A stretch of DNA of 27,818 nucleotides from a bacterium (lineage in GTDB: Bacteria > SAR324 > XYD2-FULL-50-16). The position numbers and the translations under genes were made by a program. How positions within the stretch are numbered: position 1 is the first letter of the stretch; each line of letters opens with the position of its first letter. The stretch is from assembly GCA_024275165.1 (NCBI GenBank), contig JAJRZQ010000046.1:1-27818 (forward strand). Reading direction: 5' to 3'. The notes under the pieces were generated by a model that was given only the letters and a program-made list of their open reading frames with translations, did not search any database and was not told the DNA's origin. Positions 1 to 24,621 of the stretch are shown here, piece after piece.

Positions 1-1482
1 AACTACAACGCCTTTATCACCAACCACGGAAGTATCATGATCTTCTGGGTGGCGATGCCTTTATTGATCGCCGCCTTCGGCAACATCCTGATCCCCTTGA
101 TGATCGGCGCCGATGACATGGTGTTCCCCCGCTTAAACCAACTCTCCTACCAAATCTTCTTTGTCAGCATCTTGGTGCTGATCGCGAGCTGGTTGGTTCC
201 CGGGGGCGGTTTTGGCGGTTCTTGGACCACCTATCCGCCTCTTTCTGCCAGAGCGGAATACAACCTGACCCCCTATGGGAGTTCCTTGTGGCTCTTGGCC
301 ATTGCCCTAGAGATCGTCTCCTTCTTGGTCGGAGGGATCAACTTCTTGACCACCACCATGAACCACCGCGCTCCGGGCATGCGGATGATGGACATCCCCA
401 CCATTGTATGGATGATCGACATCGCCGTTGTGCTGTTCATGTTCTCTGTCGGCCCCTTGGTCGCCGGCGCCATCATGCTGCTCTTAGACCAGCAGGTGGG
501 CACCAGCTTTTATGTTCCCAGCGGGGGCGGTGACCCGATCTTGTTCCAGCACCTCTTCTGGTTTTTCGGCCACCCCGAGGTCTATGTGATCTTGTTGCCC
601 GGGATGGGGGTTGTAGCCGAGGTCTTATCGACCTTCAGCCGCAAGAAGATCTTTGCCTACAAGACCATCATCTACACCACCTTCATGACCGGGATTCTCT
701 CCATGGTGGTTTGGGCGCACCACCAGTTTGTCGCGGGCATCGACCCTCGCATGGCTTCGGTCTTTAGCGTGACCACCATCATGATTTCGTTGCCCATCGC
801 GGTGGTGTACTTCTGTTATGTGGCCACCCTCTACGGCGGCAGCATTCAGTTCACCACCCCCATGTTGTTTGCCCTGGGCTTTATCGTGGAATTCTTGGTC
901 GGCGGTTTGACCGGCCTGTTCTTAGGCTCCAGCGGCATGGACATCTACTTCCATGACAATACCTTTGTGGTGGCGCACTTCCACTACACCTTGATGCCCG
1001 CGACCTTCTTCTGCGGTTTCGCCGGCCTCTACTACTGGTACCCGAAGCTTTACGGTCGCATGTACAACGAGACCTTGGGCAAGATCCACTTTTGGGGCAC
1101 CGCCATCTTTTTCAACGGGGTCTTCCTCCCTCTGTTTATCTTAGGGATTGGCGGTCAGCATCGCAAGATCTATGATTACACGCACTTCCCCGAGTTGATG
1201 CAACCGGGCATGCAGGACTTGCGGGTCATGGCCACTACCTCCTTGGTCATCATGCTGCTCTTCCAGTTTGTCTTTGTGATCAACTATATCGGCAGCCTCC
1301 GCAGTGGGGAAAAGGCCTCCAACAACCCCTGGAGAGCCAACAGCTTAGAGTGGGTCGCTCCCTCCCCTCCCGGCCATGGCAACTTTGAAACCTTTCCCAC
1401 CGTTTATCGTGGGCCTTACGAGTACAGCCGCGAGGACATGGAAGAGGACTTTTTACCTCAAAATGTGCCCAGCAAGGCTTAA
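1..1482 (+). CDS. ctaD: Cytochrome c oxidase subunit I (aa3-type), 5'-truncated by the window edge
   Basis: Catalytic subunit of a heme-copper terminal oxidase in the inner membrane; it reduces O2 to water and pumps protons. The reading frame is open from base 1 (the first codons read NYNAFITNHG, the heme a His region), so the true start lies upstream and 493 codons remain. Visible hallmarks are the HPEVY motif (571-585, CuB His and cross-linking Tyr), the CuB His pair in WAHHQF, and the HFHY heme ligand segment near 976-987. D-pathway residues match Paracoccus: Asn, Asp and Asn of FGN...DDM...LNQ, with Asp at 115-117. In contrast the K-pathway is altered: the canonical Ser is Ala (616-618), Thr is Ile (796-798) and Lys is Val (805-807). 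The second Arg of the propionate-binding RR pair is Lys. Family identity is certain; the K-pathway reading is a gapless alignment by eye. Subunit II is probably upstream. Confidence 0.97.
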   Translation, partial: NYNAFITNHGSIMIFWVAMPLLIAAFGNILIPLMIGADDMVFPRLNQLSYQIFFVSILVLIASWLVPGGGFGGSWTTYPPLSARAEYNLTPYGSSLWLLAIALEIVSFLVGGINFLTTTMNHRAPGMRMMDIPTIVWMIDIAVVLFMFSVGPLVAGAIMLLLDQQVGTSFYVPSGGGDPILFQHLFWFFGHPEVYVILLPGMGVVAEVLSTFSRKKIFAYKTIIYTTFMTGILSMVVWAHHQFVAGIDPRMASVFSVTTIMISLPIAVVYFCYVATLYGGSIQFTTPMLFALGFIVEFLVGGLTGLFLGSSGMDIYFHDNTFVVAHFHYTLMPATFFCGFAGLYYWYPKLYGRMYNETLGKIHFWGTAIFFNGVFLPLFILGIGGQHRKIYDYTHFPELMQPGMQDLRVMATTSLVIMLLFQFVFVINYIGSLRSGEKASNNPWRANSLEWVAPSPPGHGNFETFPTVYRGPYEYSREDMEEDFLPQNVPSKA

Positions 1483-1552: not shown

Positions 1553-2131
1553 ATGTCATTTGATTCATCCATCGCCGCAGGGCGGAGTACCACAGGAATC
1601 CCCAATGGTCGCTTGGCCATGTGGACCCTGCTGGCCTCAGAGATTGTCATCTTTGGTGGCCTGGTCGCCTCTTACTTGCTCTACCGCTTTCACAACGCCT
1701 ACTGGGCCGTGGAAGCCAGTCATACCAATGTGGTTACCGGGGCGACCAACGCCTTTATCCTCCTAACCAGTTCCTTGTTGATCGTCTTGGCGCAAAACGC
1801 GGCCGAAGCCGGAGACGGGAAAAAAGCGGCCAAGTTGATGCTCGCCACCGTAGGGGGCGGCTTTTTGTTCCTCGCGGTGAAAAGCTATGAGTATATCCAT
1901 GAGATTCAACATGGCTTTACCATTGGGGCCAATCCTTTTTGGTCTTTTTACTACACCGCGACCGCCATTCACTCCAGCCATGTCGTCGCTGGGATGATCG
2001 CGATTTACATCGTTTCCTTGGGCGCAGCCAAGGGCAAAAACTTGCAAAGAGTTGAACTCTGCGGGATCTATTGGCACTTTGTCGATCTCGTGTGGATCTT
2101 GCTCTTCCCTTTGCTTTATATCGTCAAGTAA
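1553..2131 (+). CDS. ctaE: Cytochrome c oxidase subunit III family protein (first copy)
   Basis: Non-catalytic membrane subunit of a heme-copper oxidase, 192 aa, about five transmembrane helices (the short CyoC-like form without the first two helices). It carries the family's conserved Glu in the AVKSYEY segment and the closing WHFVDLVWILLFPLLY helix typical of COX3. The ATG at 1553 is preceded by a GGAGAAG ribosome binding site. The gene follows ctaD after 70 nt containing a strong hairpin and is followed by the subunit IV gene after 19 nt, so the three probably form one oxidase operon. A second, diverged subunit III gene lies at 2764-3351; this copy is the better match to the canonical family and is presumably the partner of the subunit I seen here (inference). 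Confidence 0.93.
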   Translation: MSFDSSIAAGRSTTGIPNGRLAMWTLLASEIVIFGGLVASYLLYRFHNAYWAVEASHTNVVTGATNAFILLTSSLLIVLAQNAAEAGDGKKAAKLMLATVGGGFLFLAVKSYEYIHEIQHGFTIGANPFWSFYYTATAIHSSHVVAGMIAIYIVSLGAAKGKNLQRVELCGIYWHFVDLVWILLFPLLYIVK

Positions 2132-2150
2132 CCCTATCGGAGATAAAGAA

Positions 2151-2564
2151 ATGGGAAACGCAGAACATGGAACCAATTACTATGTCAAGATTTATGTCAC
2201 CTTGCTGGCAGCGATCGCGGCGGTCATCATCATCGGCCCCATTGTGGGGCATTTTGCGGTCATCATGGCCGCGGCCTTGGTGATTGCCGTTTATAAAGCC
2301 TCTTTCTTCATGCACTTGAATGTGGAAAAGCATTGGATCTGGTTATTTCTGATCACCGCTTTGATTTGCCTTTTCGCCTTGTTCTTCGGATCGGCAAAAG
2401 ACATCATGATGGATGAAGGGGTTTCTTGGAAACGCTGCAATGCCATCAACGAGCAGAATCGCGAGCGGATCGCGGAGCAAACGCATCATGTCGCTGAAAA
2501 ACGGCCCGACTTAGCCGGCATTGCCTTGCCTCCTGGAGTCGATTGCGTGAAGCAACGCTTTTAG
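2151..2564 (+). CDS. ctaF: Cytochrome c oxidase subunit IV-like protein with C-terminal tail
   Basis: Small 137-aa membrane protein of the prokaryotic cytochrome oxidase subunit IV type, recognised by three hydrophobic helices and the KASFFMHL segment after the second helix. The family helps assemble or stabilise the oxidase; the exact role is not established. The ATG at 2151 has a CGGAG site at 2138-2142; an upstream in-frame extension to 2052 overlaps ctaE and is rejected. The first about 90 residues cover the family. After WKRCN a hydrophilic tail of about 45 residues follows, containing two Cys and a His-His pair, which is longer than usual. The gene ends the first oxidase transcription unit: an intrinsic terminator follows 28 nt after the stop. 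Confidence 0.82.
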   Translation: MGNAEHGTNYYVKIYVTLLAAIAAVIIIGPIVGHFAVIMAAALVIAVYKASFFMHLNVEKHWIWLFLITALICLFALFFGSAKDIMMDEGVSWKRCNAINEQNRERIAEQTHHVAEKRPDLAGIALPPGVDCVKQRF

Positions 2565-2591
2565 AAAGGATAACCTTAAGGTAATTCCACG

Positions 2592-2626
2592 GGCCTCTCA
2601 CCTCACGGTGAGGGGCCTTTTTTTTT
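2592..2626 (+). terminator. Strong rho-independent terminator after the oxidase subunit IV gene
   Basis: An 11-bp GC-rich stem (2592-2602 with 2607-2617, one G-T pair) and a 4-nt loop are followed directly by nine T residues (2618-2626). This is a textbook intrinsic terminator and it separates the first three oxidase genes from the second subunit III gene. Confidence 0.93.
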
Positions 2627-2665
2627 GTTCTTTTCGCTAGTTTACAGTTTCTCTAGCCCTGTTAG

Positions 2666-2693
2666 TTGACGAAGGGATGAAAAAAAGCATAAA
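2666..2693 (+). promoter_or_regulatory. Candidate sigma-70 promoter for the second subunit III gene
   Basis: TTGACG at 2666-2671 and CATAAA at 2688-2693 are separated by 16 bp, just downstream of the terminator and upstream of the next genes. The -35 box is one base from consensus and the -10 is weaker. Position makes it the likely promoter for 2764-3581. Confidence 0.5.
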
Positions 2694-2763
2694 GAAAAGG
2701 ATACGGTTCCAATGAATCCCATTGGTCGAACGCAGACGACGCAGAACTTCAAAGCCTTGCCTT

Positions 2764-3351
2764 ATGACTTCAAGCACTTCTACCCGCATCAAGCCCAGAA
2801 AACCCGCGATTCCCAACGGAATTGTCGGCATGGCGATTTTCGTCGCCGCAGAGACCATGTTTTTTGCCGCCTTGATTAGTTCTTATTTGATTTTACGCGC
2901 TGGCGTTCCCGTTTGGCCCCCCTGGGGACAGCCAAGGTTGCCGATTTGGACCACCACCTTTAATACCTTGGTGCTTTTTGCCAGTGGTGTTTTTTTATAC
3001 CGCGCCAAAAAGCAATTTTTTGCAGATCAACTTGCGGGGGCCAAAAAACAGTTTGTTCTTTGTTTGGGGACAGGAGGGTTCTTCATCCTCTTCCAGGGTT
3101 ATGAGTGGACCCAGCTCATCAGTTTCGGTCTCACTCTTACCTCTTCCAATTATGGAGGAATTTTCTATCTGATTATCGGGCTGCACGCCCTACACGCCAT
3201 TGGCGCCCTACTCGGCTTGACCTGGGTATATAAAGAACTTTCCGGTGATGACAAAGCGGCAATCCGAGTCAACATTACCACGATTCAACTTCTTTGGTAT
3301 TTTGTGGTTGGTTTATGGCCCCTGTTATATTTGACCGTCTATATTCTATAA
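2764..3351 (+). CDS. Cytochrome c oxidase subunit III family protein (second, divergent copy)
   Basis: 195-aa membrane protein of the heme-copper oxidase subunit III family. It shows the N-terminal PAIPNGIVGM entry to helix 1, the AAETMFFAAL segment, the conserved Glu in FFILFQGYEW, and a closing helix reading WYFVVGLWPLLY. In that last helix the usual His and Asp of WHFVDLVW are Tyr and Val/Gly, so it is clearly diverged from the copy at 1553. The start is uncertain: ATG 2764 gives a sensible short N-terminus but has no ribosome binding site. A TTG at 2722 in the same frame would add an Arg-rich stretch, and a well-placed AAAGGA serves an ATG at 2712 in a different frame. It is transcribed separately from the first oxidase genes and precedes the small CxxC protein by 8 nt. 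Its partner subunit I may be the one at 1-1482 or another elsewhere. Confidence 0.82.
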   Translation: MTSSTSTRIKPRKPAIPNGIVGMAIFVAAETMFFAALISSYLILRAGVPVWPPWGQPRLPIWTTTFNTLVLFASGVFLYRAKKQFFADQLAGAKKQFVLCLGTGGFFILFQGYEWTQLISFGLTLTSSNYGGIFYLIIGLHALHAIGALLGLTWVYKELSGDDKAAIRVNITTIQLLWYFVVGLWPLLYLTVYIL

Positions 3352-3359
3352 GAGGTTTT

Positions 3360-3581
3360 ATGCGCTTTTTAACCCTGATCGTTCTCACTCTACTCCTTTT
3401 TCAACAAAGTTTGTTTGCTTGCGCTGTTTGCACCGCAGGTAAAGAGGGGTTTCAAGGCCTGCATTATTTTGCGGTTTTAATGATGCTCTTAGCCCCTTGG
3501 GCCGTGCTTGGCATCTTGGGATATTTTTTATCCCGGTCCATCAAAAAGGTTCAGGCCCAACAAGACAACCGGGAAAACTGA
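3360..3581 (+). CDS. Small CxxC membrane protein of the oxidase cluster
   Basis: 73-aa protein with an N-terminal hydrophobic signal or anchor (about residues 3-18), a CAVC motif right after it, and a second hydrophobic helix (about 37-58) followed by a basic tail. I know of similar tiny proteins with a periplasmic CPVC/CAVC motif near cytochrome oxidase genes in deltaproteobacteria-like lineages, but their function is not established. The Cys pair outside the membrane would suit copper or redox handling during oxidase assembly (inference only). The ATG at 3360 has AGAGG at 3351-3355; a longer in-frame version from 3294 would overlap the preceding gene and is rejected. No clear terminator follows. 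Confidence 0.7.
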   Translation: MRFLTLIVLTLLLFQQSLFACAVCTAGKEGFQGLHYFAVLMMLLAPWAVLGILGYFLSRSIKKVQAQQDNREN

Positions 3582-3939: not shown

Positions 3940-6900
3940 ATGCTAAAGTTTCCACATACTCAAAGACTTAGAGTCAATTTCGGCAAGATCGAATCCATTT
4001 TGGACCCCCCTCCCTTGCTGCAATTGCAGAAAGATTCCTACGATTGGTTTCTGCAAAAGGACGCTCCCCCCGAGCAACGGACCAACCAAGGCTTAGAAGC
4101 CGTATTCCGCAGCGTATTCCCCATTTCCGACTTTGGGGGATCTTGCACTTTGGAATATGTCTCCTACCGCTTAGGAGAGCCGAAATACGACGAAAACGAA
4201 TGCAAAATCCGCGGGGTCACCTTCGCCTCTCCCATTCGCGCCCTTTTGCGCCTCATCATCTGGGAAAAGGACGAAAAGGCAGAGCAAAAACGCATCCACG
4301 ACATCAAAGAACAAGAAATCTACCTCGGTGAGTTCCCTTTGATGACCGATACGGGCAGCTTTATCATCAACGGTACCGAACGGGTTATCGTCAGTCAGTT
4401 GCACAAATCCAGCGGGGTCTTTTTCTCTCACGATAAGGGAAAAGTCCACAGCTCCGGAAAATTGCTTTACTCCGCCAGCGTTATTCCTCAGCGGGGTTCT
4501 TGGCTTGATTTTGAGTTCGACACCAAAAACTTGCTCAATGTACGCATTGACCGCCGTCGCAAGTTCTTAGCCAGTATCTTTTTAAAGGCTTTAGGCTATA
4601 GCAGCGAAGAATTGCTCAATCGCTTTTACTACACCGAAAAGGTGAACCTCAAAAAGGCTTGGGTTGCTGATCCCGCCAAGCGCAAGTATTCGAAGTTTTT
4701 TAACTCCCAAGCGGCCCAAAACCAGCGCGCCATTGACGATATTCTCTCCCCAGAAGACGGCACTCTGCTGATTCAAGGGGGAAAAAAGATTTCCAAAGCG
4801 GCTTTAAGAAAACTCAAAGACGCCGGTGTCCAAGAGATCCCCTCTTCTTTAGAAGACATCCTAGGCCGCTACAGCCTCTCCGATATCAAAGGTCAAGACG
4901 GCGAGATCATCTTAGGCAGCAACGAGCCGGTAACCGAAGAGGTGCTGGAGCTTTTGTTGGAAAACAAAGTAGAGAGCGTCACCCTGCTCTACATGGGCAA
5001 CAAAACCATTGGCGCCGCCTTACGCAACACCTTGGCGGCCGATAAGGTCAACAGTTCCAACGACGCCCTGATCGAAATCTACAAAAAAATGAAGCCCGGC
5101 GACCCCCCGACCCTGGAGGTGGCCAAAAACCTGCTGAACAACATGTTCTTCAACCCCGACCGCTACGACCTGTCGAATGTCGGTCGGATGAAGATCAACA
5201 AAAAACTGCACCTCGACATCCCCATGGAGCAGACCATCTTAGCCAAGGACGACATCTTGGCGGTGGTGGAATATCTCTTGCGGCTCAAAGACGGGGCCGG
5301 CGGGCAGGTGGACGACATCGACCACTTGGGGAATCGCCGGGTTCGCAGTGTGGGCGAACTGTTGGAAAATCAGATTCGCATCGGCTTGGTGCGCATGGAA
5401 CGCGCAATTAAAGAGCGCATGAGCCTGCAGGAAACCGAGACCATGATGCTGCATGACATCGTCAATTCCAAGCCCGTCAGCGCGGTGATCAATGAGTTCT
5501 TTGGCTCCAGCCAGCTCAGCCAGTTCATGGATCAAACCAATCCGCTTTCGGAAATCACCCACAAAAGACGCCTCAGCGCCTTAGGCCCGGGCGGTTTGAC
5601 CCGCGAGCGAGCCGGCTTTGAGGTGCGGGATGTGCATACCAGCCACTACGGCAGGATCTGCCCCGTAGAAACCCCCGAAGGCCCGAATATCGGGCTGATC
5701 TCTTCGGTGGCGACCTACGCCAAACTCAACGAGTTCGGCTTTATCGAAACCCCCTACCGCAAGATTGAGGACGGTCGGGTTACCGGCGAAATCGTTTATC
5801 TCTCCGCCATTGACGAGGGGAATTACAAAATCGCCCAGGCCAACGCGCGTTTGGACAAAAAGGGCAGCTTCCAGCGCGATTTCGTGCAGGCTCGCTATAC
5901 GGGCGAATCCAAGCTGATCAGGCGTGAAGAAATCGAGATGATGGATGTTTCTCCAAAGCAGTTGGTCTCCATCGCCGCCAGCTTGATCCCCTTTTTGGAA
6001 CACGATGACGCCAACCGCGCCTTGATGGGTTCCAACATGCAACGCCAGGCCGTACCGGTAGTCAAGCCCGAGGCCCCCTTCGTGGGCACGGGCATGGAAG
6101 GCCAGGTGGCCCATGACTCCGGCTCTTGCGTCGTGGCCCGTCGCTCTGGAGTCGTGGACCGGGTTGACGCCGAACGCATCGTGATTGAGGCGGATGTGGA
6201 TCTCGCCAGCGAAGAAGGCGGCATTGAAGCCAATGTAGATATCTACCACCTCAACAAGTACCGCCGCAGCAACCAAAACACCTGCGTGAACCAGCGCCCG
6301 GTGGTCAAGGTGGGCCAACGGATCGTGAAAAGTCAGATTCTGGCCGATGGCGGTTCTTGCGAAGGGGGCGAATTGGCTTTAGGGCAAAACATGCTCATCG
6401 CCTTCATGCCTTGGAACGGGTACAACTACGAAGATTCGATTTTGGTCAGTGAGCGGGTATTGCATGAAGACCGCTTTACCAGTGTCCACATTGAAGAATT
6501 AGAAGTCTTGGCCCGCGATACCAAGCTCGGCAAGGAAATGATTTCCAAAGACATCCCCAATGTGAGTGAAAACGCCTTGCGCAACTTAGACGAATCGGGA
6601 ATTATCCGCATCGGTTCCTATGTCAAATCCGGGGATATCTTAGTCGGCAAGACAACGCCTAAAGGGGAGACCCAACTCAATCCCGAAGAAAAGCTCTTGC
6701 GCGCCATCTTTGGTGAAAAGGCGGGAGATGTCCGCGATACTTCACTCCGCGTGCCTCAAGGCATCGAAGGGGTGGTGATTGATGTCAAGGTCTTTAACCG
6801 CAGAGGGGTGGAAAAAGACACCCGCACCGAGCAAATCGAAGCGGCGACCTTAGAAAAGATTAACGCCGATTACCAAGACGAGATTCGCATTGTGCGGGGC

Positions 6901-8100
6901 AACCTACACAAGCGCGTGCTGCCTCTGCTGGAAGGGAAAAAGGTGGAATACGACCTCTTCAACCCCCATTCCAACGAAAAAATCCTTGCCAAGGGCAAGG
7001 TCATGGACGCGGAAACCTTTGTCACCATCCCCAAAGAGGCCTGGGCCGATATTCGGGTTGGCGATGGCGAAGCCAATGAGCAAATTCGCATTATTTTGGC
7101 CAATGCCCGGGTTCAGTTGGAACTCTTAGACAATGTATACGCCTCTAAAAAAGAACGAGAATTCCGCACCGACGACCTCCAACCGGGGGTAATCCGCAGC
7201 ATCAAGGTCTATGTGGCCATGAAGCGCCGGTTGAGTGTCGGGGATAAAATGGCGGGCCGCCACGGGAACAAAGGGGTCATCTCAAAGATCATTCCCTTAG
7301 AAGAAATGCCCTACGATGAAAAGGGCAATACCGTGGACATCGTCTTAAACCCCTTGGGCGTCCCCTCCAGGATGAATATCGGGCAAGTGCTAGAAACCCA
7401 CTTAGGGCTCGCCGCCAAGGGCGTAGGCGATAAGATCAACGAGGCCCTCCAAGCGATGCACCCGGTCAACCAGGTCAAACAGCAGATCAACGAGATCTAC
7501 CAATCCAAGTTCTTAAAAGACTACCTCGACTCGGTCAGCGATGAAGAGGTCATGGAGTTTGCCGACAAATTAAAAAAAGGGGTGCATGTCTCCACCCCGG
7601 TCTTTGACGGGGCTCATGAAAGCAATATTGACACCCTCTTAAAGCTCGCCGACTTTGACAGTTCCGGGCAGATGACCCTTTTTGACGGGCGCACCGGCGA
7701 CCGCTTTGAGCAAAAGGTGACGGTCGGTTATTTGTATATGCTTAAATTGCACCACTTGGTCGATGACAAGCTGCATGCCCGCTCCATCGGGCCTTACAGC
7801 TTAGTCACCCAGCAACCCCTGGGCGGCAAGGCCCAGTTCGGAGGGCAGCGCTTCGGTGAGATGGAGGTCTGGGCTTTGGAAGCCTACGGTGCCGCCTACA
7901 CCCTGCGCGAGTTGTTGACCGTGAAGTCCGACGACATCACGGGGCGAAACCGCATTTATGAATCTATCGTCAAAGGCACCCATGATGTCAAAACCGGAAT
8001 CCCCGAATCCTTCCGGGTCTTAATCAACGAACTAAAATCCCTCTGTCTGGACTTCCAACTGATTTCCGACAAGGGGTACTTTGAAACCGAACAGGACTAA
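3940..8100 (+). CDS. rpoB: DNA-directed RNA polymerase subunit beta
   Basis: Beta subunit of the core RNA polymerase, 1386 aa, slightly longer than the E. coli protein. The N-terminus ([16 protein letters not shown]) matches the family start, so ATG 3940 is right although the GAGAAGG site is only 2 nt away. The [18 protein letters not shown] and [13 protein letters not shown] blocks and the C-terminal [22 protein letters not shown] block are intact. In the rifampicin pocket Asp531, His541, Arg544 and Ser546 correspond to E. coli D516, H526, R529 and S531, all in the sensitive state, so susceptibility is predicted. It is the first gene of a dense block with rpoC 33 nt downstream. Unusually, no rplJ or rplL precedes it; an oxidase cluster and a dedicated promoter do. 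Confidence 0.99.
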
Positions 8101-8133
8101 TCCAGCGAATGCGCTGACAAACAGGGAGGCCCC

Positions 8134-11100
8134 TTGAACGCATATAACGAGAATCTCGATCCGATCGACTATTACGCCGTGCAGATTAGTCTCGCTTCCG
8201 CCGAGCAGATTTTGTCCTGGTCGCATGGTGAGATTAAAACTTCGGAAACCATCAACTATCGCACCTTCAAGCCGGAACGAGACGGCCTGTTTTGCGGTAA
8301 AATCTTCGGACCGGTCAACGACTACGAATGTATCTGCGGGAAGTACAAACGAATGAAGCACCGCGGCATCACCTGTGAAAAGTGTGGGGTCGAGGTCATT
8401 CAATCCAAGGTTCGCCGCGAACGCTTAGGTCACATTAAACTCGCCTGCCCGGTGAGCCATGTCTGGTTCTTAAAAGGGCTGCCCAGCCGCTTGGCCAATA
8501 TCTTGGATATGACCCTGCGGGATTTGGAGCGAATCCTCTACTTCGATGCCTACATTGTCTTAGATCCCGGTGCCTCGGAAGTCGAAAAATATCAAGTCAT
8601 CGACGAGACCACCTACCAACGCTTGAGCGAAGAAGATGTCGACTTGGAAGCGAGCATGGGGGCAGAGGCGATCAAAGAAATCTTAGAAGACATGGATATC
8701 TTAGAGCTTTCTGAAACCCTGCGCGAAGAACTCCGCGAAGTAACCAGCGCAGCAAAAAGAAAAAAGATCATCAAACGGCTCAAAATCGTGGAGGCCTTTA
8801 AAAAATCCGGGCTCAATCCCTCCAACATGGTCTTGGACATCATCCCGGTGATCAGCCCCGAGTTGCGCCCCTTAGTGCCCTTAGAAGGGGGCCGTTTCGC
8901 TACCAGCGATTTAAACGACCTCTACCGTAGGGTGATCCATCGCAATAATCGTCTGAAAAGACTGATGGACCTCAACGCCCCAGAGATCATCGTTAAAAAC
9001 GAAAAAAGAATGCTGCAAGAGGCGGTAGACGCGCTTTTTGACAACGGGCGTAGAGGTCGGCCCATCTTAGGCACCAACAAGCGACCCTTAAAATCCCTTT
9101 CGGATACCTTAAAGGGAAAAACAGGCCGATTTCGCCAGAACCTTTTGGGAAAAAGGGTTGACTATTCCGGTCGTACCGTGATCGTGGTGGGCCCCGACTT
9201 AAAACTAAACCAATGCGGTCTGCCCAAGCAGATGGCCTTGGAGCTCTTTAAGCCTTTTATCTTCAACTACTTGATCGAACGCGGCAAGGCGGCGACCATC
9301 AAGGTGGCGAAAAAAATGGTGGAAAACAACGACCCGGAAATCTGGCCCGCGCTGGATACGGTCATCGTGGATCATCCCATTCTTTTAAACCGCGCGCCTA
9401 CGCTGCACCGTTTGGGGATTCAAGCCTTTATGCCGATTTTAATCGAAGGCAAGGCGGTGACGCTGCATCCTTTGGTCTGCTCCGCCTTCAACGCCGACTT
9501 CGACGGAGATCAAATGGCCGTCCACCTTCCCTTGTCGGTGGAAGCGCAGATGGAAGCCAAGGTTTTGATGATGGCGACCAACAACATCTTATCGCCTGCC
9601 ACCGGCAAGCCCGCCATGACCCCCACCCAAGATATGGTCTTGGGCATCTACTGGCTCACCCGCGCCGCGAGCGGCGCCAAGGGGGAGGGCAAGGCCTTTT
9701 CGGGCTACGATGATGTTTTGGCGGCTTACGATCACGATTTGGTCCATCTGCAAGCTCAGATCAAGGTGCGGCACGAAGGCGAAATCGTGCAAACCACCGT
9801 GGGCCGAGTGCTGCTCTATGACGGTATCCCCAAAGAAATTCCCTTTGCCTCCATCAATAAGCTCTTTAAGAAAAAAGACTTAGAAAACCTAATCGACCAG
9901 TCCTACCGGGTCGCGGGCAATGTAAAAACCGTAGAGATGCTCGACATGTTGAAAAACAAAGGGTTTTCTCACGCGGCACGGGCCGGTTTCTCCATTTGCA
10001 TGCGCGATATGATCATCCCCGATGAAAAGGTGGGGCTGCTCCAACGAGGGCAAAAAGAGGTCGAAGAGATTCAATTGCAGCACGACAACGGAATCATTAC
10101 CGACGGCGAACGCTACAACAAAGTCATTGATATTTGGTCTAAAATCACCAATGAAGTGGGCGAGGCCATGAAAAAAGGCATGGCCAAAGAGGTCATGGGG
10201 GCCGATAAGGTCATGATCCCCAATCCCATCTTTGTCATGGCCGATTCCGGCGCCCGGGGCTCTGAGCACCAATCCCGCCAGCTCGGCGGAATGCGCGGCC
10301 TCATGGCCAAACCTACGGGAGAAATCATTGAAACCCCCATTACGGCCAACTTCCGTGAAGGGCTCAATGTAGCCCAGTACTTTATCTCTACCCATGGCGC
10401 CAGAAAAGGCCTCGCCGATACGGCCCTAAAAACGGCCAACTCCGGTTACCTCACCCGTCGTTTGGTGGATGTCGCTCAAGATAGCGTGATCACCTCGCAG
10501 GATTGCGGCACCACCGAGGGCATCACCATCCAACCCTTGTTGGAAAACGGGGAAGTGATCGTGAAATTAGGCGAACGGGTTTTAGGGCGAATCATCGCAG
10601 AAGATGTCATCGACCCCTTAACCAGTCAGGTTATCCTCGCTCGGGGCACCTTGGTGACCGAAGCCGATACCGACCAACTCGACAACCTGGGGATTGATCA
10701 AATCAACATTCGCAGCGTGTTGACCTGCGAAAACCGGGAGGGAATCTGCGCTCTATGCTATGGCAGGGATTTGGCCAAAGGCAATCTCATCTCCGTGGGC
10801 GAGGCGGTGGGGGTCATTGCCGCCCAATCCATCGGCGAACCGGGAACCCAGTTGACCATGCGGACCTTCCACATCGGGGGTACGGCTTCTCGGAAAGCGG
10901 AAGCCACCCAATGGGAGTCGCGCAGCGCGGGCAAACTGCTCTTTAATGACGCAAAAACAGTCATCAATCGGGCGGGAATATGTATCTTGGCGAGTCGTAA
11001 GACGGAAATCGCCATCCAAGATAAACATGGCCGCGAGGTGGATAAACACATGTTGCCCGTTGGAGCTTTAATCTTCTTTAAAGAGGGCGACACCATCCAA

Positions 11101-12270
11101 AAAGGGGATAAAATCGCGGAATGGGACCCCTTTTCCATGCCCATCATTGCCGATGTGGAAGCGAAAATTAAGTTTGAGGATATTGAAGAAGGGAAATCCC
11201 TACGCATCCAAAAAGCCGAGGATACCGGTTACGAGCGGCGCGTCATTACCGAGGCCCCGGATCAGAACCTAAAACCTCGCCTCTTGGTAAAACATCTGAA
11301 AACAGGCAAGGAACTCAAAAAAGAGGATGGCCGCCCGCACCAGGGCTTTTATCTCCCCAATAAAGCCGAATTGATGGTTTCTGAGGGGGATGAAATCTTC
11401 CCCGGAGATCTTTTGGCACGGGTTCCGCGCGAAACCACCAAGAACAAGGATATCACCGGGGGTCTGCCTCGCGTGGCGGAACTGTTTGAAGCGAGAAGCC
11501 CCAAAGACCCCAGTCAGATTTCCGATATTGACGGCATTGTGGAATTTGGTGAGGACTTACGCCGCAAACGGCGCATCATCATCCGTCCGGAAATCGGTGA
11601 ACCCAAGGAATATCTGGTTTCCAAAGGGAAGCATGTCGTGGTGGTCGAGGGGGATTATGTCCGCATGGGCGAAGCCTTGACCGATGGTAGCGCCAACCCC
11701 CACGACATCTTACGGGTCAAGGGAGTCAAGGAGTTGCAACGCTTTTTAGTCGATGAGGTGCAAGAGGTTTACCGGCTCCAAGGGGTGCGCATCAACGACA
11801 AGCACATTGAGGCGATTGCTCGGCAAATGCTGAGGAAAATTAAAGTCTTAGAACCCGGTGACTCCAATTACCTGGTTGGGGAAGCGGTGAGCCGCGGCCA
11901 ACTGGAACAGGCCAACCAAAAACTGATGGAGGAGGGCTTGCGCCCCGCGATTGGCGAGCCCCTTTTATTGGGGATTACCAAAGCGGCCTTAAGCACCGAT
12001 TCGTTTATCTCCGCGGCGAGCTTCCAAGAGACCACCAAGGTCTTGACCGAAGCGGCGATCAACGGCAAGGTCGATACCTTCAAGGGGTTAAAGGAAAATG
12101 TGATTATCGGGCGCTTGATCCCGGCGGGAACGGGCTACAGTCCGAATCGATCCTTTGGTTACGAGGCCACTGAAGGAGAAGAGGAGGACTATTACGAAGG
12201 GGATGAAGCGGAATTGGTTGCCGAGCCGACCCTCGACGAGCTTGCCGATGACGAGGCCAAGGAGACTTAA
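8134..12270 (+). CDS. rpoC: DNA-directed RNA polymerase subunit beta'
   Basis: Catalytic beta' subunit of RNA polymerase, 1378 aa. A TTG start at 8134 is chosen: an AGGGAGG site lies at about 8122-8128 and the product begins just before the conserved [16 protein letters not shown] region. The first zinc site shows as CICGK...CEKCG near residues 68-88. The catalytic NADFDGDQM has Asp455, Asp457 and Asp459 for Mg. The second zinc site uses the Cys of SQDCGTTEG and the three Cys of [11 protein letters not shown]. The trigger-helix [11 protein letters not shown] is followed by the long insertion (SI3 type) known from E. coli, readable by similarity through [20 protein letters not shown]. The C-terminus is a strongly acidic tail of about 40 residues. 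ilvB begins 5 nt after the stop, with its ribosome site inside the rpoC end, so translation is probably coupled. Confidence 0.99.
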
Positions 12271-20592: not shown

Positions 20593-23500
20593 TTAGATTG
20601 CGAAAAGGTCGTTAAGGTCGTCGAGGTTCAACATCTCTTCTAAAGAGTCGTTCCCCCCAACAATATTGTCTGCCAGGGCTTGTTTTTTTTCTTGCAGTTC
20701 GATGATCTTTTCTTCGATGCTGCCCCGGGTGATCAATTTATATACAAAGAGATGATTTTTCTGCCCGATTCGGTAAGCGCGGTCGGTTGCCTGCGCCTCC
20801 GCGGCGGGGTTCCACCAGGGGTCGTAATGAATGACATAATCCGCCGCCGTGAGGTTGATGCCCGTTCCCCCCGCTTTCAGGCTGATCAGAAAAACAGGGT
20901 AGTCGTCACTTTGTTGGAACTTAGCGACCAATTCCTCCCGATTTTTACTGGTTCCATCGAGTTGCAAAAAGGGAATCCCCTCTTTTTTCAAGTCCGCGTG
21001 CATCAAGTTGAGCATTTTCACAAACTGACTGAAGACTAATACCCTATGACCTTCACCGACGATCTCCGTCAAGGTCTCCATAAAAAGCTTGTACTTGGCG
21101 CTGGTGGGGGGATCTTCTCCGGCTAAAGGGCTGAGCCTGGGATCATTACAGATTTGACGGAGCTTTAAGAGGGCATCGAAGATGGCGATTTTTGCCCCTC
21201 TCACCCCCCCAGCGGAGATCTTTTCCTTCACCTGTTGGCGCACCACCTCCATCACGGAGTAGTAGAGCTTTTTTTGCTGCTCGTTCATCTCGCAATGCAG
21301 CGTCTGCAAGGTTTTCGGAGGCAGCTCCTTGGCCACATTCTGCTTGAGGCGGCGCAGAATAAAGGGTCTGGTTTGACGGCGCAAAAGGCCATGGTTGGGC
21401 TTTTTTCGTCGGCTTCCCTTCCTCGATTTAATGTAGTCTCGTTCAAATTCACGCAGACTCCCAAAAAAGCCGGGCATCAAGAAATTAAATTGGCTCCACA
21501 GCTCACTCACGGAGTTTTCAATCGGGGTTCCCGTCAAGGTGAGGCGGCGGTTCCCCCTGAGTTCCATCACCGCTTGCGCGGTTTTGGAGCGGGCATTTTT
21601 GATATTTTGCGCCTCATCTAAAATAATAACCTGAAACTCAATCCCCGTCAGCCATTCCAAATCGCGCTGCAACAAACCATAGGTGGTAATGATCAGGTCC
21701 GCTTTTTTTGCCGCCTGCAATAGATTTTTCCGCTTCTGCCCATGGAGCAAAACCGCGTTGAAGGTGGGGATAAATTTATCCACCTCCGCCATCCAGTTGG
21801 TGACCACGCTGGTCGGGGCAATGACGAGATTGGGTTTTTTGGGCCTCTGCTTTTTTTGGATAATCCCTAAAAAAGCTAAGGTTTGTAGAGTTTTCCCCAG
21901 ACCCATATCGTCCGCCAAAATGCCCCCAAAACCAAACTCGTATAAAAAGCAGAGCCAGTCCACCCCCTCCCTTTGGTAATCGCGCAAGGTGGCGGTGATC
22001 TCTTTAGGGATGCGCTGCCGCCGGAGCCCCTTAAAGTTGGAAAGTTTTTCGGTAACCTCAATCCAGCCCTCGTCATGCTGTTTTTCCGCGGCAATGGATT
22101 CTAATTCACTCAAAAGCCCGATCTGGTATTTATCGACTTTCAACAATTCGCCTTGAGGCTCCTCCCCCGCCCCTTCGGGGACTTCACCTTGAGAGCTTTG
22201 CACCAAACGGTTTAAAATGGGGGCATATTTCTCAATCCAAGCCTGATCAATCACCGCAATCCCTTCCGAACCGGTCAGCTCAATCGCCTCTTCGTTTTTC
22301 TTCCACATTTCCACCAGCTTTTTGAGATCAAAAAGCTGACCGTCCACCGTGAGTTTGATATCCACATCAAACCAGTCCATCCCGCTTTTGATCGCCGTGG
22401 CAATCTGGGGAACCAATTTTTTGGTTCTCCAGCGCTTAAGCTTCGTGGAGCCGAGATATAAAATTAAATTTTCATGGTTCACATCGGGGAGGCGGTTTAA
22501 GACAAACTGCATGGCCATGTCTTCACGCATGGAGTATTCCCCATTGCCCTCGTCGATCCAACCGGTTTCCACCAATTCATCTCGCAGCCGTTGTTCTTGA
22601 TTGAAGTTTTTGGGAATCTTATACTTTTTCCCATCCAGAACCTGGGTAAACTCATCGGCGTTCAACTGAAAAGGATAGGGGTATTCCCCAATATCGGTGA
22701 GCATATAGGTATTGAGTCGGCCCATGAGCACGCCCTGTACCTCCCAAATTCCCATGCGGCCTTGAATCCGGTAGTTGAACAGGGCCGAGACCCGCAGCAC
22801 CCCTTGAGGGTCGTGGATCTGAATATTTCGCTGTTTTAAATAAGGCAGGGCAGCGGCGTAAAAATCACTGATTTCGTTTTCCTCCACCACAATGCCCGAC
22901 ATGGAATCATTCGCTAAACGCCCCGAGAGCATGCTGCCCACCCGCGCCAACTGAGAACCCCGCAGAATAAAACTGGGGGCCATGCCCACCGCCTTATCGC
23001 GAAAATCCTCTTTCGGCTTGAGGGGAATAAATTTATTCCCCTTCGGGCAAAGGCCGATTTCCCCCTTGAGCAGGTATTGATTCTCGTTTTCCGGGTTTCG
23101 TTTTACGATAATGCGAAATTGTACCTTTTCTTTGTTGAAGAGCGGTTGATCGTCCCAACTAAAAGAATAGGGGTATTCTTCCGCTAAAATCAGCACTTGA
23201 CTGGCTTGGTGCCGTTCTAAGGAAAAAAAATCCTCGGTTTTTTTCCCCTTCCAAATAGCGCGAAAAACCTGAAACAGTTTGGCCGCCTTCGGTGCCGCCT
23301 TGGGGTTGGCCAATTTGCCGGTTTTTGGTTCAAAGTTTTCAATGGTAATGGCCATCCGGTTGGTGTTGAAGTGCTTGGTTTCCTCATGCATCCGCAAACG
23401 CACAATTTGCTCCGGCGAATCAAAGAGCTGCACCTTAGTTTCCGGCTCGTGGAGCCAATACTTCCAGTCGCGAATCTTCCTCGCGATAAAGTTCGGGGTA

Positions 23501-24564
23501 TCGGCCTCCGTGGACTCGGCCTGTTTCAACTCCTGTTCGGGATACCAGATTTCCCATTTTTCCAAAAAGCCCTTCCACTCCTCGTTGGGAATCAAAACCC
23601 CGTTAAAGGTTTGCTGAATCATGGTCGCCGGGATGGAGGTCGGCAAGATTTCATAATAGCGATAATGGTGCAAAATCGCTTTGGGCAGCCCGTAAAACAT
23701 CACCCCGTTTTCATCAAAATCTTCGGCGATAATGGGCACCCTTTTTTCCTCCTCCCGATGGAAAAAAGCCCCGGAGAGAATCCGATGGTTGGGAAGGGTA
23801 TAAACCTGCAAATCAAATTCCACCTTTTTGTGGCTGTTGCGCACCGGGTTATTGGAATCCCCATAATATAAAAAGGGATGCCCCAAAAGCAAAAAGAGCA
23901 AGCTATGGCTATCTCGACTCGAAAGAATTAAAGGGTTGGGTATCTCTGCCCCTTCCTCTCTCAGATGATGCTCTTCATCCGTGATCAGGCGGTTTTCTTC
24001 CAAAAAGGTTTTCACCACCCAACCGGGATTATTGTTGTTGTCTAAAAGGGATTTAGAGATGTTTTTAATCGGCTTTTCATTCCCCCAACCGCGAATTCCA
24101 TAGCGGGAACGATTAAAGGACCATTTAAATTTATCTTCATAGTCCGGCGATTGAATCTGCTCAAAACGAATAATCGTATGGATGTCTCCCACCTCAATGG
24201 GAATCGAGTCAAATCCATGTTCTTGCTTCCAATCCTTAAAGGAAAACTGGGGGTAATCGGGGTAGATGCCAAAATTAGGCTGCCCCGGCACGGGGGGCGG
24301 GGGTAGGTTGAGGGTCGGGTCTGCCTCGAAGTTGGTGATCGCTTGCGCCTTTTTCCAGTCCGCTTGATCTTTTTGGGGTACATCGAAAAGGTCTTCGATG
24401 ATTTTTTCAATGGGCTCGCCTTTATCTTCTAAAAGATAGAGGGCTTGGGCCTCCCAATCCTCAAAGTCGGCTAAAAATTTAGAAAACTCCAAACGCAGAT
24501 CTTTAGAGATCGCCTTTGCCTTTTTCAAGGCTTTCACAATGGGGTGACGGGGGAAAAGGCTCAT
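20593..24564 (-). CDS. Large SNF2-family DNA-dependent ATPase (helicase-like)
   Basis: SWI2/SNF2 ATPase of about 1323 aa, expected to translocate on double-stranded DNA and remodel protein-DNA complexes. The C-terminal third (about 860-1310) has all helicase motifs: DDMGLGKT (Walker A, codons near 21889-21911), APTSVVTNW, DEAQ, LTGTPIENS, VLVFSQF, SLKAGGTGINLT, and DRAYRIGQ. Before it, a region near DWFDVDIKLTVDGQ resembles the bacterial SNF2-associated domain. The first about 650 residues are not recognisable to me; no Cys-rich zinc finger is evident. Start: ATG 24564 (MSLFPRHP) is preferred over TTG 24585, since the latter would place a perfect palindrome inside the gene; neither has a good ribosome site. 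It leads an operon with greA and is close to rpoBC, so a RapA-like role in RNA polymerase recycling is plausible but unproven. Confidence 0.9.
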   Translation of the reverse strand: MSLFPRHPIVKALKKAKAISKDLRLEFSKFLADFEDWEAQALYLLEDKGEPIEKIIEDLFDVPQKDQADWKKAQAITNFEADPTLNLPPPPVPGQPNFGIYPDYPQFSFKDWKQEHGFDSIPIEVGDIHTIIRFEQIQSPDYEDKFKWSFNRSRYGIRGWGNEKPIKNISKSLLDNNNNPGWVVKTFLEENRLITDEEHHLREEGAEIPNPLILSSRDSHSLLFLLLGHPFLYYGDSNNPVRNSHKKVEFDLQVYTLPNHRILSGAFFHREEEKRVPIIAEDFDENGVMFYGLPKAILHHYRYYEILPTSIPATMIQQTFNGVLIPNEEWKGFLEKWEIWYPEQELKQAESTEADTPNFIARKIRDWKYWLHEPETKVQLFDSPEQIVRLRMHEETKHFNTNRMAITIENFEPKTGKLANPKAAPKAAKLFQVFRAIWKGKKTEDFFSLERHQASQVLILAEEYPYSFSWDDQPLFNKEKVQFRIIVKRNPENENQYLLKGEIGLCPKGNKFIPLKPKEDFRDKAVGMAPSFILRGSQLARVGSMLSGRLANDSMSGIVVEENEISDFYAAALPYLKQRNIQIHDPQGVLRVSALFNYRIQGRMGIWEVQGVLMGRLNTYMLTDIGEYPYPFQLNADEFTQVLDGKKYKIPKNFNQEQRLRDELVETGWIDEGNGEYSMREDMAMQFVLNRLPDVNHENLILYLGSTKLKRWRTKKLVPQIATAIKSGMDWFDVDIKLTVDGQLFDLKKLVEMWKKNEEAIELTGSEGIAVIDQAWIEKYAPILNRLVQSSQGEVPEGAGEEPQGELLKVDKYQIGLLSELESIAAEKQHDEGWIEVTEKLSNFKGLRRQRIPKEITATLRDYQREGVDWLCFLYEFGFGGILADDMGLGKTLQTLAFLGIIQKKQRPKKPNLVIAPTSVVTNWMAEVDKFIPTFNAVLLHGQKRKNLLQAAKKADLIITTYGLLQRDLEWLTGIEFQVIILDEAQNIKNARSKTAQAVMELRGNRRLTLTGTPIENSVSELWSQFNFLMPGFFGSLREFERDYIKSRKGSRRKKPNHGLLRRQTRPFILRRLKQNVAKELPPKTLQTLHCEMNEQQKKLYYSVMEVVRQQVKEKISAGGVRGAKIAIFDALLKLRQICNDPRLSPLAGEDPPTSAKYKLFMETLTEIVGEGHRVLVFSQFVKMLNLMHADLKKEGIPFLQLDGTSKNREELVAKFQQSDDYPVFLISLKAGGTGINLTAADYVIHYDPWWNPAAEAQATDRAYRIGQKNHLFVYKLITRGSIEEKIIELQEKKQALADNIVGGNDSLEEMLNLDDLNDLFAI

Positions 24565-24567
24565 CCT

Positions 24568-24581
24568 AAGTTGTACAACTT
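24568..24581. promoter_or_regulatory. Perfect 14-bp palindrome at the start of the SNF2-greA operon
   Basis: AAGTTGTACAACTT is a perfect inverted repeat with no spacer. It lies 4 nt upstream of the SNF2 ATG and about 40 nt downstream of the candidate -10 box, within the predicted 5' untranslated leader. This placement fits a repressor operator or an RNA hairpin covering the ribosome binding site. A chance origin cannot be excluded. Confidence 0.45.
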
Positions 24582-24621
24582 GCAATCAACAATCATTAAA
24601 AAAACATTAGGCCATTTTAAT

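Follow-up and report, generated by a model that had tools for sequence, protein, structure and literature searches.

The closest described relatives of the enzyme considered here are the type A cytochrome c oxidases, for which Lys354, Thr351 and Ser291 (Paracoccus denitrificans, Pd, numbering) are listed as the K-channel residues; oxidases of the B and C types are without the Lys (PMC3084760). In Rhodobacter sphaeroides (Rs) numbering, A356 is among the residues that line the K-channel and define its volume, and S197 is listed among the D-channel residues (PMC10341450), while the Cα atom of A319 has served as a marker of K-channel width (PMC9687966). In the ba3 oxidase, the haem a3 hydroxyl and Tyr237 receive protons from Ser309 (PMC3141039). 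For archaea, family A oxidases that lost the K-channel have already been described, with seven losses inferred on a tree of archaeal COX1 (PMC8239418). The lysine channel that is lost in the enzymes described below had been thought indispensable, and the clade without it is widespread among the mitochondrial-type oxidases.

The window, a stretch of 27,818 nucleotides from a SAR324 bacterium, opens with a gene for cytochrome c oxidase subunit I (coxA/ctaD; 1..1482, forward strand, as are all coordinates below unless stated otherwise). Its 493 residues match Pfam COX1 with 414 bits and NCBIfam CtaD_CoxA with 535 bits, the latter under the equivalog cut-off of 670.75. The gene is truncated at its 5′ end because contig C39 begins inside it, and about 80 N-terminal residues are absent from the assembly. 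The organism's own subunit II gene, which was searched for in the assembly and not found, was lost at the contig break. A second genome of the same family also has an assembly break in this oxidase gene (L020, G001:C164). Downstream lie a first COX3-like subunit III (1553..2131; Pfam COX3), whose place in the gene order is kept in the clade of related enzymes, a subunit IV-like membrane protein (2151..2564) with no trusted Pfam match and with homologues at the same place in relatives, a second COX3-like subunit III (2764..3351; Pfam COX3, the ATG at 2764 being assumed) and a small ORF for a membrane protein with a CxxC motif (3360..3581), which has no Pfam or NCBIfam match and to which a similarly placed ORF of L037 and L055 corresponds. 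Clade members share the operon order II-I-III-IV-III′, with the subunit IV gene unrecognised in a few of them. The two distinct COX3 genes around the subunit IV-like gene (1553-3351) are both kept through the clade, and the Lys-bearing L064 and L072 likewise have two COX3-like ORFs. The rpoB and rpoC genes (3940-12270) come immediately after the oxidase operon, and within the window they are not preceded by genes for ribosomal proteins. On the minus strand, positions 20593-24585 encode an SNF2-type helicase of 1330 residues, of which the roughly 850 preceding the helicase domain match no Pfam family.

Subunit I carries the marks of an A1 enzyme. The HPEVY motif (571..585) provides the CuB ligand His191, the D-pathway Glu193 and the active-site Tyr195, and all six His ligands of haem and CuB are conserved (H9, H191, H240, H241, H326 and H328). 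The initial annotation had described the D-pathway as intact in its Asn/Asp/Asn set and HPEVY Glu. This holds: the entrance Asp39 (115..117; Rs D132 in the alignment), N28, N46, N114 and E193 are the counterparts of Pd Asp124, Asn113, Asn131, Asn199 and Glu278, and E193 sits in FGHPEVY, a form of the XGHPEVY motif. S49 and S107 are kept as well. Two D-channel positions that had gone unmentioned do differ, Rs S197 being Glu104 and Rs S201 being Phe108. An AlphaFold2 model built on 54 sequences (pLDDT 84, pTM 0.88) confirms the A-family fold at the level of a predicted structure; its best PDB match in Foldseek is Rs cytochrome c oxidase (TM 0.87, 39% identity), the top hit happening to be the K362M mutant. 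Tree and fold both place the enzyme among the A-type oxidases, and in relatives a CuA subunit II gene adjoins that of subunit I. Three other memberships were rejected. The D-pathway speaks against a B-type (ba3) enzyme, as does the ba3 K-channel Thr/Ser/Tyr set, which is matched only by a Ser-like residue. The HPEVY Tyr, the D-pathway and the adjacent COX3 genes speak against a C-type (cbb3) enzyme, a type characterised by FixO/FixP subunits. A nitric oxide reductase, which would be marked by an extra Glu motif at the active site, FeB in place of CuB and the absence of the HPEVY Tyr, appears unlikely, given the presence of HPEVY and AHH and a sequence that is closest to those of oxidases.

Between HPEVY and GGSI the protein aligns to Rs subunit I without gaps, as the initial annotation had described for the Paracoccus aa3 sequence, and residue n of the window enzyme is Rs n+93. 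Direct reading and this alignment agree that the K-pathway Ser (Pd S291, Rs S299) is Ala206 (616..618), the Thr (Pd T351, Rs T359) is Ile266 (796..798) and the key Lys (Pd K354, Rs K362) is Val269 (805..807), followed immediately by Tyr270, which is what the initial annotation had reported. Since none of the three K-channel residues is present (0/3), the enzyme is filed as a variant subfamily and not as a standard A1 oxidase. The Ser-to-Ala change on its own is weak evidence because the Lys-bearing caa3 oxidase of Thermus also has Ala there. A sequence or assembly error, to which the position of the gene at a contig end might point, can practically be dismissed: three separate codons are changed, and dozens of independent relatives agree.

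No relative at 50-74% identity has Lys at this site; canonical enzymes, at about 44% identity, do. Lys was absent from 49 of 49 clade members in a first set and then from 86 of 86, and it is kept in the 119 other A-family enzymes examined. The 49 Lys-less sequences form one clade in the tree with an SH-aLRT support of 99, and the clade is recovered with a support of 98 in a larger tree from which the helix VIII columns were removed. The earlier suggestion of a distinct oxidase subfamily is thus well supported, and it is almost certain that the subfamily belongs to family A and is without a Lys-based K-pathway. Its members come from SAR324, Myxococcota, Gemmatimonadota, Bdellovibrionota, Verrucomicrobiota, an Eisenbacteria MAG, a Spirochaetia MAG and Kapaibacterium. 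About 60 of the 188 Myxococcota genomes sampled and 6 of the 61 of Gemmatimonadota have such an enzyme. Lys-less enzymes also occur in cultured bacteria, Pelagicoccus sp. SDUM812002 and Puniceicoccaceae bacterium K14.

Outside the clade, further Lys-less lineages are a Bdellovibrionota/Myxococcota/Bacteroidota group with FLAHPEVY, three Myxococcota enzymes (L166-L168) with a PAE motif and a Glu at Rs 360 of helix VIII, the A2-like L023 and L031 of SAR324, and L249 and L250 of Gemmatimonadota. A second A-family oxidase of Pelagicoccus (L180, G047:C147) has Gln in place of the Lys (PTGIQ), with neither a Ser at position 263 nor an acid in subunit II, and its loss of the Lys is an independent event. 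For the remainder, an AU test does not reject a tree constrained to a single Lys-less clade (p 0.28, with all Lys-less sequences taken except L180 and the later-fetched L249 and L250). One ancient loss is therefore possible for the group, in which case the traits shared by its members would have been inherited together and would not be convergent. The counts given below reflect few independent evolutionary events.

The genome from which the window comes is 98% complete and has two COX1 matches, the window gene and one on contig C14 (L002, G000:C14:50681-54958). The latter is B-like and has HTLVN in place of HPEVY, without the active-site Tyr; it apparently resembles the sNOR kind of NO reductase. 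Its locus also holds a CuA-like subunit II, a thioredoxin- or SCO-looking ORF and an NsrR/Rrf2 regulator. A bd oxidase was sought in the genome and not found, so that the window enzyme is its only recognisable O2 reductase. A predicted CtaA is encoded on contig C21, consistent with the use of haem A. Because CtaA is present, a bd oxidase was not found and the other COX1 is without the active-site Tyr, the window enzyme should be functional. These data also bear on the idea that the enzyme is impaired or repurposed, being inefficient at O2 reduction and reducing, for example, NO. According to work cited in PMC10341450, the Rs K362M mutation prevents complete transfer of electrons into the active site, as such an idea would predict. 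The gene complement just described, the conserved operon order and the fact that 86 members from many phyla keep every His that binds haem or CuB, as well as Glu193 and the active-site Tyr, make it very improbable.

If the enzyme is functional, its K-side protons may enter by another route. The initial annotation had offered a relocated pathway through the Tyr, Cys and Tyr that follow the lost Lys in the same helix. The general idea is plausible; the residues named are not the right ones. Y270 and C272 already differ in the closest relatives, the positions being F and A in L004 and L005 and L/M/C and V/S/A clade-wide, and Y273, although common in the clade (62/86), takes the place of a Trp, so a path through Y270, C272 and Y273 was rejected. 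A displaced Lys was sought in helix VIII and helix VI across the clade, and none was found. The conserved residues that emerge as candidate replacements are Ser263 in helix VIII, Thr226 in helix VII and an acid in the second transmembrane helix (TM2) of subunit II. Ser263 (787..789) corresponds to Rs A356 and is Ser or Thr in 108/109 Lys-less enzymes versus 2/119 Lys-bearing ones, 115 of which have Ala. In the last-fetched Lys-less set, from Bacteroidota and Gemmatimonadota, it is Ser or Thr in 12/12. It looks necessary and is not exclusive to Lys-less enzymes, because two Lys-bearing enzymes of the last-fetched set have Ser there. Thr226 (676..678; Rs A319) is Thr or Ser in 80/86 clade members and is less specific, with Ser found in 44 of the 119 Lys-bearing enzymes. 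The Lys-less lineages that share the replacement set are only about 45% alike.

Changes in subunit II accompany those in subunit I. The entrance Glu (Rs E101) is Glu in 68/68 Lys-bearing subunit pairs and in 22/88 Lys-less pairs; on the tree, this site has no change among 30 Lys-bearing sequences and at least 8 among 55 Lys-less ones. Fisher tests give p values of 1.6e-14 and 3e-25, both of which ignore relatedness and are not to be taken literally, the change counts being fairer. The whole K-pathway is dismantled, the entrance Glu of subunit II included. In the middle of TM2, 15 or 16 residues past E101, an acid is present by strict count in 84/88 Lys-less pairs and in 0/68 Lys-bearing ones. 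Of the four exceptions, L154, L164 and L165 have the acid shifted by about two residues relative to the ungapped anchor, and in L180 it is truly absent. At 1.5 Å per residue, this acid would lie about 22 Å above E101, roughly level with the active-site Tyr, when set against molecular dynamics distances taken from PMC9687966. L004 and L005, the nearest relatives of the window enzyme with a subunit II, both carry an Asp in TM2.

Most of the clade has a further pair of residues. Position 268, which is Val in the window enzyme (802..804; Rs I361), is Glu in 65/86 clade members. In 54/54 of those with a subunit II, this Glu is accompanied by a TM2 His that lies 8 residues past E101 of subunit II, as against 2/16 of the enzymes without Glu268. 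This His is the subunit II column most strongly associated with Glu268. With only 2-3 changes of each residue on the tree, the association is suggestive, and independent-pairs tests of the co-occurrences had only 1-3 pairs and no significance. The pair could be read as a one-residue relocation of the Lys, with Glu268 working together with the subunit II His and the enzymes lacking it being secondary or slow variants. This is improbable, since the early-branching L054-L058, L061, L021 and L181-L185, like the window lineage with L004 and L005, have neither residue; the pair is therefore not general to Lys-less enzymes.

We favour, with a probability of about 0.5, a functional CuA-type A-family oxidase with the A1 motif that retains the D-pathway and has a rebuilt K-side entry borne by subunit II. 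The D-pathway would supply the pumped protons and the chemical protons of the oxidative phase, and the chemical protons of the reductive phase would most likely use the rebuilt route on the K side. The acid halfway up TM2 of subunit II would replace the Lys as proton carrier and pass protons to Ser263 and Thr259 in helix VIII, together with Thr226 in helix VII, and from there they would reach Tyr195 and the hydroxyl on the side chain of haem a3, in the manner of Ser309 in the ba3 oxidase. In most of the clade, the Glu268-His pair could act as a lower relay two helix turns closer to the cytoplasm, and the window lineage would use the route without this extension. The sequences show that the Lys, Thr and Ser and the subunit II Glu have gone and that replacements are shared; that these residues touch, conduct protons and sustain pumping is inferred.

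The main competitor is an oxidase in which a modified D-pathway feeds both half-cycles and the TM2 acid and Ser263 are structural. Complete retention of the D-pathway suits this explanation, and so do two changes from the Arg of the proteobacterial set to Asp, at positions 38 and 131, close to where the D-pathway opens. Replacements on the K side are fewest in the window lineage. Glu104 (310..312), at the D-channel position Rs S197, is invariant in the clade (86/86) and occurs in none of the enzymes examined outside it; likewise, Gln242 (724..726), beside the CuB His-His pair, is found in 86/86, and the site is Met in all 119 Lys-bearing enzymes and in the other Lys-less ones. Being fixed only in the clade of the window enzyme, these two residues equally point to a change on the D side. 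However, the other Lys-less lineages do not have Glu104, and Ser/Thr263 and the subunit II acid occur in nearly all of them. The rebuilt K-side route is preferred because these two features, found in almost every Lys-less lineage, lie on the K side and the novelty on the D side is confined to one clade; supply through the D-pathway alone is a serious but less probable explanation. L180, which lost the Lys with no visible replacement, favours the latter and, like the two Lys-bearing enzymes with Ser263, counts against the rebuilt route. The shared residues could also have been inherited for other reasons, since there were few independent events and a single origin is not rejected.

More than 100 natural A-family enzymes from several phyla do without the Lys and retain the D-pathway. 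As natural experiments, they bear on the reason for two proton channels, on whether the reductive phase can be served through the D-pathway alone and on how proton channels are rebuilt across a subunit interface. At somewhat under an even chance, a large bacterial branch of family A has exchanged the Lys channel for one between subunits I and II, made up of the TM2 acid, the Ser at Rs 356 and, in most members, a co-evolved Glu-His pair, which would make the Lys dispensable for O2 reduction and perhaps for pumping. In the annotation of A-type oxidases, Lys, Thr and Ser should not be mandatory.

Among known systems, K-channel loss within family A is known from archaea, and the bacterial clade with its subunit II changes is apparently undescribed. 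A literature search for bacterial A-family enzymes without the K-channel Lys found only the archaeal report, whose count concerns archaeal COX1 and whose accessible part describes neither the present clade nor changes in subunit II; a search of the open-access literature, with few subscription papers covered, found no description of either. The window enzyme resembles the cbb3 oxidases in the principle of a single proton input without the Lys. Unlike them, it has the HPEVY Tyr and a D-pathway, whereas cbb3 has no D-pathway and takes its Tyr from another helix. With the ba3 oxidase of Thermus thermophilus it shares the absence of the Lys and a Ser in helix VIII that is spaced like Ser309, which would be equivalent to Rs 356 judging by the same three-residue spacing to Thr312 and Thr315, a comparison of spacing and not a structural alignment. 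It differs from ba3 in keeping the full D-pathway and in being without equivalents of Thr312, Thr315 and Tyr248, and its similarity to ba3 is low (E about 1e-10 versus 1e-118 for A-type enzymes). Closest are the A1 aa3 oxidases of Rhodobacter sphaeroides, Paracoccus and mitochondria, which have in common with it the 12-helix fold, XGHPEVY, the D-pathway Asp, Asn and Glu, a CuA-type subunit II (in its relatives) and CtaA (in its genome). Unlike these, the enzyme and its relatives have no Lys/Thr/Ser K-pathway and have often lost the subunit II entrance Glu; they have instead a Ser at Rs 356, an acid in TM2 of subunit II, a Glu at Rs S197 and a Gln after the CuB His pair.
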